This document shows, one piece after another, positions 26,677 through 31,870 of a stretch of 64,000 nt of DNA. Made by a program: the position numbers and the translations under genes. The first letter of the stretch is position 1, and the number at the start of each line of letters is the position of its first letter. The notes beneath the pieces are model-generated. The model searched no databases and was not told where the DNA came from. It saw only the letters and a program-made list of their open reading frames with translations. The DNA is from Micromonospora vinacea (lineage in GTDB: Bacteria; Actinomycetota; Actinomycetes; Mycobacteriales; Micromonosporaceae). The DNA is taken from contig NZ_JADOTY010000001.1 in the NCBI RefSeq assembly GCF_015751785.1, forward strand, positions 5,580,001-5,644,000. Reading direction: 5' to 3'.

Positions 26677-30345
<3,669 letters not shown>

Positions 30346-30491: not shown

Positions 30492-30635
30492 TCAGCGGTA
30501 CCGGAAGCCAGCGGCCTGGCGCACGCCGCAGCGGCCGGCCCGAGGCGTGCGGGCGCGACCGGTTCCGGGCGCGGTGCGGCGCCCTGCACACAGATTGTGA
30601 CGATGCTCGTCGATGAATGAGACGCCGTGCGTCAT
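30492..30635 (-). CDS. 47-residue leader ORF between cobalamin riboswitch and cobN
   Basis: Starts at an ATG preceded at ideal distance by GAGGAGG, the best ribosome-binding site in this leader. It begins MTHGVSFIDEHRHNLCAG and then becomes Arg/Gly/Pro-rich. It is not a CbtB cobalt-transporter protein (no membrane helix), and I do not recognise a family. The His/Cys cluster DEHRHNLC near the start could bind metal. Its start lies about 35 bases after the riboswitch B12 box, so it is the first translation start the riboswitch can reach; cobN follows 146 bases later. A translated leader or small metal-binding protein are both possible. Confidence 0.5.
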   Translation of the reverse strand: MTHGVSFIDEHRHNLCAGRRTAPGTGRARTPRAGRCGVRQAAGFRYR

Positions 30636-30669
30636 CGGGTCCTCCTCGGGTGTCCACGCCCTGGGGTAC

Positions 30670-30845
30670 GTCCCGACGGCCGAAGTATCCTGGCTTCCGG
30701 ATCGACGCTCTCCCCCGGCCTTCCAACCGCAGACACACGGCCGTGACTCACGAGGGGGGATCGCTCCCCGGTGACAGTGGCGGGACCGCGTCGGATTCAC
30801 ACCGACTTCCTTCACTGCCGTCAGGCCGCGAATGCTGCCACACCG
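30670..30845 (-). ncRNA. Cobalamin (AdoCbl) riboswitch
   Basis: Read on the minus strand, the core contains GGAAGTCGGTGTGAATCC, GACGCGGTCCC and the conserved GCCACTG box (30775-30781). It ends in the B12 box AGCCAGGATACTTCGGCC (30678-30695). These are the sequence hallmarks of class I cobalamin riboswitches. It lies directly upstream of the leader ORF and the whole cobN-to-cobA operon. The Shine-Dalgarno of the leader ORF begins about 20 bases after the B12 box, and no T-tract terminator is seen. Control of translation initiation (with knock-on transcription effects) therefore seems likelier than attenuation. Confidence 0.93.
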
Positions 30846-30962
30846 CCGCGCCGCCGGTCAACGCCGGTCCGGCTCGACCAGGCGCACGGAACTCATCGAG
30901 ATTCAGCGATTGGTGCGAGCGCGAGTCCGCGCGCCGCAATGCCCCAGATCAATGCTCGACAT

Positions 30963-31033
30963 CCTTTGCTCTGCTTACCTATGTGCACCACACACGGAGC
31001 GTCACCGGTGCGTATAGGTAAGCAGAGCAAAGG
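30963..31033. repeat. Very long perfect hairpin element between divergent genes
   Basis: CCTTTGCTCTGCTTACCTAT (30963-30982) is exactly complementary to ATAGGTAAGCAGAGCAAAGG (31014-31033). After two G-T wobbles the stem continues with GCACC/GGTGC, giving about 27 pairs around a 17-base loop. It is less GC-rich than its surroundings. It lies between the riboswitch promoter region (minus) and the metallo-hydrolase gene (plus), so it cannot terminate either gene. It looks like a dispersed palindromic repeat (REP/MITE-like) or a regulator site. The rest of 30846-31153 shows nothing else recognisable. Confidence 0.85.
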
Positions 31034-31153
31034 GAGGTTGCACCTACCCTGGCCTGCGCCGATCGTCCGGCGGCGCGTTGCCGGCCGACACCCTCACATA
31101 GGATCGGCGATCGCCACACCAGTGTCCGTGATCAATCTCGGAGGTCGATCACC

Positions 31154-31870
31154 ATGGTCGCCCCGCAGTTCCACCACCTCGCCGGTCGGGTCTGGCTCTG
31201 TCCGGGCGATCCGGACCCGGAGGCGGTCCAGGCCGGCGTCGCCGTCGTCGCCGACGAACGCGGCAGTGTGATGATCGACGCCGGGCAGAGCCCCGCGCAC
31301 GCCGGCGACATCCAGGCCGCGCTGGCCGCCGCCGGGCTACCCGAGCCGCGCTGGCTGGTCTACACCCACCATCACTGGGACCACGTGTGGGGCGCCTGCG
31401 CCTGGCCCGGGGTGGAGATCGTCGGGCACGAGACGGCCGTGTCGCTGCTGCGCGCCGAGGCCACCCGGCCGTGGAGCCACCACTACCTGCAGGAGCAGGT
31501 ACGCGCCGATCCCCGCCTCCGCCCGAGCTTTCGGGCACGCGCGCGCGCCATGGCGTCCTGGGAGGGCTTCGCCATCCTGCCGCCGACCCGGACCTTCACC
31601 GACGTGGACGAGCTGCCGGTCGGGGTCCGGCTACGCCACGTCGGCGGGGGGCACGCGCCGGATTCGACAGTGGTGCTGGTGCCCGACTCGGGGGTCATGC
31701 TTCTGGGCGACTGCTTCTACCCGCCGCCGGCACATCTGCGCCGGCCGGAGGACGGCCTCGATCTCGACCTGGTCCGGCGGCTGCTGGACGACACCTACCA
31801 CTGGTACGTCTCCAGTCACGCCGAGCCGATGACGCTCGAGCAGGCCCGCTCAGCCGTCGAGGCTGCCTGA
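31154..31870 (+). CDS. Metallo-beta-lactamase-fold hydrolase
   Basis: 238 residues. The metal motif is THHHWDH (71-77), giving the canonical H-x-H-x-D-H. It also has DERGSVMIDAG before it, VGGGHAPDSTVVLVPDSGVMLLGDCFYPP with the later metal Asp, and HAEP near the C-terminus. This is a glyoxalase-II/lactonase-like cytoplasmic hydrolase with two metal ions; no signal peptide. Substrate cannot be told. ATG start with a GGTCGATCACC leader lacking a strong ribosome-binding site. Confidence 0.85.
   Translation: MVAPQFHHLAGRVWLCPGDPDPEAVQAGVAVVADERGSVMIDAGQSPAHAGDIQAALAAAGLPEPRWLVYTHHHWDHVWGACAWPGVEIVGHETAVSLLRAEATRPWSHHYLQEQVRADPRLRPSFRARARAMASWEGFAILPPTRTFTDVDELPVGVRLRHVGGGHAPDSTVVLVPDSGVMLLGDCFYPPPAHLRRPEDGLDLDLVRRLLDDTYHWYVSSHAEPMTLEQARSAVEAA

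Follow-up and report, generated by a model that had tools for sequence, protein, structure and literature searches.

The 71-nt hairpin between cobN and a metallo-hydrolase gene of Micromonospora vinacea is one copy of a dispersed family of short palindromes, found mainly in Micromonosporaceae, that are probably non-autonomous, REPIN-like mobile elements. The repeat family itself is real, widespread and apparently unreported within the literature searched, where no work joined Micromonosporaceae with 'repetitive extragenic palindromic' or Micromonospora with REPIN; the passages of PMC5765111 consulted deal with CRISPR alone. A preliminary description of this DNA had offered three explanations for the hairpin, of which a mobile palindrome is now the best supported, because copies are dispersed and near-identical elements stand at unrelated loci. 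The other two, a structured RNA and a site for a multimeric regulator, are possible, with pairing kept by changes on both sides and outer boxes that hardly vary. The argument for mobility is drawn from dispersed near-identical copies, not from any observed insertion, and that for a role behind genes from location and modest extra conservation.

An exceptional hairpin in the cobN-hydrolase gap

Positions below are those of the window, the whole 64,000-nucleotide stretch analysed. The element and its neighbours are as follows.

30963-31033, strand not assigned: whole palindromic element, 71 nt, defined by inverted arms and fold
30963-30974, plus strand: left-arm outer box CCTTTGCTCTGC, near-invariant across own-genome and pooled arms
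30975-30982, plus strand: left-arm genome-specific co-varying segment, here TTACCTAT, from arm comparison and covariation
30985-30989, plus strand: left-arm inner box GC[AG][AC]C, here GCACC (base 23 is G in 201, base 24 C in 200 and base 27 C in 200 of 202 arms)
30990-31006, strand not assigned: loop, 17 nt, from inverted-repeat search and fold
31007-31011, minus strand: right-arm inner box, from arm comparison
31014-31021, minus strand: right-arm co-varying segment, from arm comparison and covariation
31022-31033, minus strand: right-arm outer box, from box searches in the own genome and the pool
30661-30837, minus strand: cobalamin riboswitch aptamer, a neighbour outside the element (RF00174, 87.1 bits)
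26677-30345, minus strand: cobN, neighbour (PF02514, 1348 bits)
31154-31870, plus strand: metallo-beta-lactamase-fold hydrolase gene, neighbour (PF00753, E 2.6e-14)
31099-31104, plus strand: TAGGAT, putative -10-like hexamer before the hydrolase gene and 3' of the element, read by eye

The arms (30963-30989 and 31007-31033, 27 nt each) are 93% complementary; counted from the foot, 20 exact pairs are followed by two G-U wobbles in the plus-strand RNA and then by five exact pairs, in agreement with the 27-pair hairpin first described. The preliminary judgement that such a structure lies far beyond chance was also sound. Folding of window positions 30955-31040 gave -52.0 kcal/mol for plus-strand RNA (z -9.2) and -48.4 for the minus strand (z -8.2), with 0 of 200 shuffles as good in either case. 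Within the 64 kb the hairpin is the longest inverted repeat (loops ≤60 nt, ≤2 mismatches), the next independent one being 18 nt and the longest in six order-1 Markov resamples 16-20 nt; poorer but longer arm pairs exist in the window, e.g. 35 nt at 71% and 30 nt at 80%. An Rfam search of the window at gathering score returned RF00174 alone, the hairpin matching no Rfam family.

Two other origins had been named at the outset, the terminator of an unannotated transcript and an assembly artefact. Neither terminator-like nor sigma-70-like sites were scored across 30600-31200, and the hairpin, whose end reads ...GCAAAGG, is not followed by the U-tract that an intrinsic terminator would require. An artefact was rejected because several other genomes carry the hairpin at the same site.

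A dispersed repeat family centred on Micromonosporaceae

A search of the 7.34-Mb own genome (G000) gave 8 matches to the 15-nt arm and 28 + 25 to the 12-nt outer box CCTTTGCTCTGC; the reversed control of each gave 0. Using one exact 12-mer to find loci and allowing ≤2 mismatches in the partner arm, the boxes assemble into 26 paired elements, and three exact boxes stand apart from any close partner. Genome-wide search, as proposed in the preliminary description, uncovered dispersed copies. The 18-mer suggested there is, within the window, unique to the two arms (≤3 mismatches) and represents the minority TTACC subtype. The 15-nt TTACC arm occurs in 45 of 151 Micromonospora genomes, compared with 113 of 151 for the general gapped pattern, TTTGCTCTGC N25-85 GCAGAGCAAA, whose reversed form served as control and gave 0.

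Copy number by the gapped pattern is 23 in the own genome and reaches a maximum of 34 (G039). In the family sample the pattern matched 46 of 150 genomes, representing 17 of 44 Micromonosporaceae genera (control 0), and in a class-wide draw 3 of 296 genomes, two of them in the genus and the third G359; the remaining 292 class-draw genomes outside Micromonosporaceae gave zero matches. G359, a low-completeness actinomycete genome, matches the box pattern through CTGCTGCACATGCGGTGCAGACCTG-like tandem repeats (e.g. L470), which by eye are probably unrelated to the family. Among the matches listed, the genera with the family are Micromonospora, Verrucosispora, Rugosimonospora, Actinoplanes/Paractinoplanes, Catellatospora and Catenuloplanes; these matches also include one well-formed 63-nt element in Pseudonocardia oceani (L183, near 748-810) and, in P. 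ammonioxydans (L099), one arm on its own. Since the P. oceani copy lies outside Micromonosporaceae, the family is not strictly confined there. The scan of named contigs from which such loci come returned at least 120 stretches, among them single chance-like boxes in unrelated bacteria.

When the box was relaxed at two bases, 5 of the 38 element-free congeners matched, with a single copy each, and 33 gave no match; one of these 33 (G140) has a decayed copy fitting neither pattern, so such remnants are under-counted. Phages and plasmids searched with the window copy yielded no match, and four viral contigs matching the bare box pattern appear unrelated.

Two-box arms with maintained pairing

Each arm leads from the fixed outer box through about 8 genome-specific bases, co-varying between arms, to an inner GC-box. 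In all 26 own elements both arms match the outer box perfectly at bases 2-12. In a pool of 159 elements (≤1 mismatch), biased toward the TTACC arm, no fewer than 317 of the 318 arms carry the same base at every one of these positions. Copies in other genera may differ at base 2 (L451, L454, L455). Arm types were compared over 101 distinct elements from nine genomes, after N-containing elements, those longer than 100 nt, inexact boxes and duplicates had been dropped. Bases 13-16 vary by genome: ACCC predominates in G000, G029, G030, G117, G056 and G133, TTC is found in 22/22 arms of G128, and TGCC in 5/6 arms of G038. The own genome holds ACCC and TTCA types together, the window copy belonging to the smaller TTACC type. 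The near-constant inner-box bases were not required by the search.

The commonest element length, 71 nt, is that of 110 of the 261 distinct elements in the retrieved loci, and other lengths cluster at 80, 83, 115 and 124-127; length steps of ~11 bp, suggested by early listings, were abandoned, as the fuller list shows many other lengths.

Over bases 13-27, the two arms of one element agree in 1092 cells versus 973.5 ± 17.6 when arms are re-paired within the genome (maximum of 500 re-pairings, 1026), and the excess is confined to bases 13-20, with none at 21-27. At the window site, followed by synteny through nine genomes, 88.1% of cells pair versus 80.0% when shuffled, both-side changes occur at 11 of 27 pairs, and covariation in this set, which omits the decayed G140 copy, is 0.217, against which shuffling gives 0.108 and sliding 0.017-0.111; further pair types are no more numerous than in shuffles (221/500 reach the observed number). 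Paired variants at this site include TTACC/GGTAA, TGCCC/GGGCA (G030) and ATACC/GGTAT (G133, G056). The pairing excess and the both-side changes therefore show that complementarity between arms is maintained, which could come about by selection for a folded substrate or by hairpin-templated (quasi-palindrome, template-switch) correction.

Several variants of this plan were seen. In some other genera, at L437-L447 (G158), L448-L454 (G254) and Rugosimonospora africana loci including L070, L103, L125 and L180, the palindrome extends ~10 bp past the box; this outward extension is genome-specific (e.g. TGCGCG... in G158), and the own genome shows none. Elements in G117 (L410, L404, L409, L397) and G056 (L376) are nested or in tandem with arms in common, resembling REPIN clusters, and L410 carries one of its boxes twice, 17 bp apart. 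Arms stand in direct tandem or partnerless in Actinoplanes sp. NBRC 103695 (L091, L167, L182, L111). Long elements (126-137 nt) occur in the own genome at L287, L311 and L294 and at the same sites in other Micromonospora, with related loci at L105, L145, L110 and L184; among the genes beside them are one for a LigD-type primase-polymerase and one for a glyoxalase.

Copies are dispersed while their sites persist

All 11 of the 23 G158 copies that were fetched measure 80 nt, and their 1-kb flanks have just two common stretches, of 37-38 nt. G254 has two identical 70-nt elements with no flank match, two G117 elements at separate loci (L402 and L403) differ at 1 of 71 bases, and Rugosimonospora has several copies with like interiors. 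Near-identical copies with unrelated flanks thus establish dispersal, placing homologous copies at non-homologous loci as in mobile repeats.

Many sites are nevertheless held in common. Among 114 element rows (a few nested) from nine genomes, we found 21 site groups common to at least two genomes, beyond which there were 24 single sites and one group internal to G128; sites were grouped when one flank or both matched over ≥200 nt, and for some genomes the copies fetched were a part of the total (G128 13/16, G038 3/10). Within this sample 17 of 26 own elements are shared. Sites common to different species indicate long persistence: the convergent gap beside hemB (ALAD) has an element in G000, G029, G030, G038, G056 and G117, and also at L425 in another Micromonosporaceae genus (G167), where both neighbours are homologous at 70-79%. 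Across the 52 closest pairs, identity between the boxes is 0.792 versus 0.736 in the 60-nt flanks, the interior being higher in 36/52 when each interior's better orientation is taken; identity is 0.883 at 300-600 nt away and 0.617 for unrelated elements. Shared sites and a slower-changing interior also fit a function in place, which counts against the mobile reading, and a 3'-end RNA or protein-binding role is possible.

At the 7 fetched sites that G128 shares, its own arms are all of the TTC type and the partners are of another type at 6, as might be expected if the copies formed a network bound by one dedicated protein (an insulator, nucleoid or loop-forming factor) whose drifting specificity for DNA carries all arms with it; genome-specific arm types and boxes fixed as double strand fit such a network as well. 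The G128 loops, however, are no closer to orthologous sites (0.522) than to unrelated elements (0.518; permutation on per-site means, p = 0.19), so that the whole interior seems to have been replaced rather than the arms alone adapted, and near-identical interiors at unrelated loci require copying. We therefore regard a binding-site network as distinctly improbable. In-place arm change with a conserved loop, suggested by eye for L346/L295 and L337/L353, was set aside with overall loop identity at chance. Frequent in-place inversion of the interior was likewise rejected, with 3/156 pairs passing a 0.15 margin (two loci, all with G133, where the flanks are too diverged for sure orientation).

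It seems that the site stays while its content changes wholesale, either through inter-copy conversion or because one element is lost and another inserts into that gap. One tentative and rather doubtful extension is that the enzyme of an undescribed hairpin-processing system uses the fixed 12-bp boxes as recognition sites and continually swaps interiors among dispersed sites, giving per-genome homogenisation at old positions without a RAYT; if true, short palindromes would be undergoing concerted evolution while their loci stay fixed.

Elements gather behind genes

We placed 25 of the 26 own elements relative to genes called by a codon-usage script, with intergenic spaces of the same 8-kb loci and the window as control. 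Twenty of the 25 lie ≤140 bp from a gene 3' end, where random placement in intergenic DNA would put 42% (p = 1.4e-4). Convergent gaps hold 10/25 (14% expected, p = 1.3e-3) and divergent gaps 3/25, window copy included (27% expected, p = 0.11), and in 11/12 tandem cases the element is nearer the upstream gene's end (p = 0.006). No gene class is favoured: at most 2/50 own neighbours, and at most 4/64 other-genus neighbours (64 of 68 listed proteins examined), match one Pfam family, which answers in the negative the question, raised at the start, of whether copies sit next to particular classes.

Enrichment at 3' ends and in convergent gaps, together with a strong fold on both strands, double changes that preserve pairing and a between-box part more conserved than its near flanks, would suit a 3'-end element (bidirectional terminator, mRNA stabiliser or RNase site) that spread through its usefulness behind genes. 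We consider this origin unlikely. Apart from the want of a U-tract or terminator-like site noted above, termination needs no fixed 12-bp stem, and a fixed stem points to sequence recognition; the window copy stands upstream of two divergent genes; and 38 of 151 Micromonospora genomes do without a match, 33 of them also without a relaxed-box match. The same 3' location bias is described, in a part of PMC3733652, for REPs, which are thought to be mobile.

Search for a mover

In REPINs, which PMC3116915 ties to RAYTs, the architecture is the same, with inverted conserved ends, a spacer, a hairpin and several flavours per genome. That the family is a true REPIN mobilised by a Y1 tyrosine transposase (RAYT) is nonetheless very improbable and largely refuted. 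A PF01797 (Y1_Tnp) profile search gave 0 matches in the own genome; the domain is present in 44 of 151 Micromonospora genomes, of which 32 belong to the 113 that bear elements and 12 to the 38 that do not, and 81 of the 113 have none. RAYT/Y1_Tnp was rejected as the mover because its presence and absence across the genus do not track the elements.

Other marks of transposition were sought. Target-site duplication, assessed for 159 elements at k = 2-10 and three offsets, showed no excess over shuffles (largest z 1.5). Among 309 shorter orthologous stretches there was no clean empty site; two passed a loose filter and neither stood, one being a tandem array inside G117 and the other a comparison of G030 with G108 in which the surrounding sequence is scrambled. 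Neither 120 named loci (≤8 kb) nor the own genome's exact boxes yielded an autonomous element with the same ends, the sole longer arm pairs in the named loci (356-524 bp; L109, L117, L174) enclosing no whole gene. No conserved tetranucleotide such as a GTAG/CGTC foot tag lies outside the boxes in the own genome, the highest flank information being 0.46 bits.

If the palindromes are non-autonomous mobile elements, a trans-acting enzyme would recognise their arms, probably in a cruciform or folded single-strand state, and from time to time would copy the unit, or move it, to an intergenic place. Those landing near promoters would be purged, so that survivors would collect behind genes, and once placed the elements would be inherited vertically.

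Relation to known repeat systems

The family is known in kind, as small mobile palindromes, and unusual in its freedom from a RAYT link, its fixed-box and co-varying arms and its shared sites. Integron attC sites have two conserved boxes per arm and a variable centre, and are recognised as a folded strand. Their resemblance to the family's two-box arms and variable centre is of the works-like kind only, as the family consists of dispersed single units with different boxes. MITEs (Correia/NEMIS, RUP, ERIC) are short, non-coding and dispersed, have inverted ends and form a hairpin when transcribed. The family shares with them its short non-coding dispersed units and inverted ends and differs from MITEs (treated in part of PMC2229807) in that no target duplication and no insertion sequence with the family's ends were found.

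Closest are REPINs, the REP doublets of Pseudomonas and others: like them, the family consists of short hairpin-forming doublets whose inverted ends are conserved and whose spacer varies, and it occurs in multiple extragenic, dispersed copies of several flavours. Unlike them, it needs no RAYT, the own genome and 81 of 113 element-bearing ones having none, shows no GTAG/CGTC foot tag, carries a co-varying genome-specific segment between two fixed boxes and occupies many sites common to species. CGTC-type REPs, apparently without a dedicated transposase according to PMC3733652, are similar palindromes downstream of genes and between convergent genes. REPs are described as measuring 20-40 bp and carrying a tag on one side, whereas the present family is ~71 bp, has two boxes per arm and is tagless.

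Small palindromic repeats are best understood in RAYT-bearing bacteria. Here a family that shows no RAYT link, and whose arms co-vary by genome, is spread widely among antibiotic-producing actinomycetes and offers a clean comparative system, comprising 26 own copies and, by one exact pattern, 113 element-bearing versus 38 element-free congeners. It could help to find the repeat enzyme and to separate structure selection from hairpin-templated mutation.

The copy beside the cobalamin riboswitch

With cobN on the minus strand and the hydrolase gene on the plus strand, the window copy lies upstream of both divergent genes, just as first described, and would be a tolerated passenger there. When 30 hydrolase loci were read by eye, 8 had an exact-box element (window included) and 2 a decayed one (G108, G140); G029, G030, G133, G056, G092, G128 and G038 retain the element here. 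Such persistence, in 10/30 hydrolase loci, could be read as local regulation of cobN or the hydrolase gene, an explanation we hold to be extremely unlikely: family members elsewhere sit beside unrelated genes, and the same cobN/hydrolase gap has no element in G118, G020, G067 and G051, for example (by eye). A link to the riboswitch or to the two genes, suggested by the location, thus finds no support, because neighbour classes differ and relatives with the same gap lack the element, which most likely has no role in B12 control. For annotators, such a hairpin beside a riboswitch or promoter should not be taken for local regulation.

Some further observations concern this locus. In M. sp. H61 (L147), the hydrolase is 92% and a 527-aa stretch of cobN 98% identical to the window's. 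The hydrolase upstream region of G140 (L204) holds a decayed element with a diverged outer box and an intact inner stem, which both box patterns miss. The TAGGAT hexamer recurs, by eye, in several aligned upstream regions, with no sigma-70 pair scored. Between riboswitch and element, at window positions 30937-30956, a GCAATGCCCCGGATCAATGC-like block recurs by eye in several relatives and is possibly the cobN promoter or operator.
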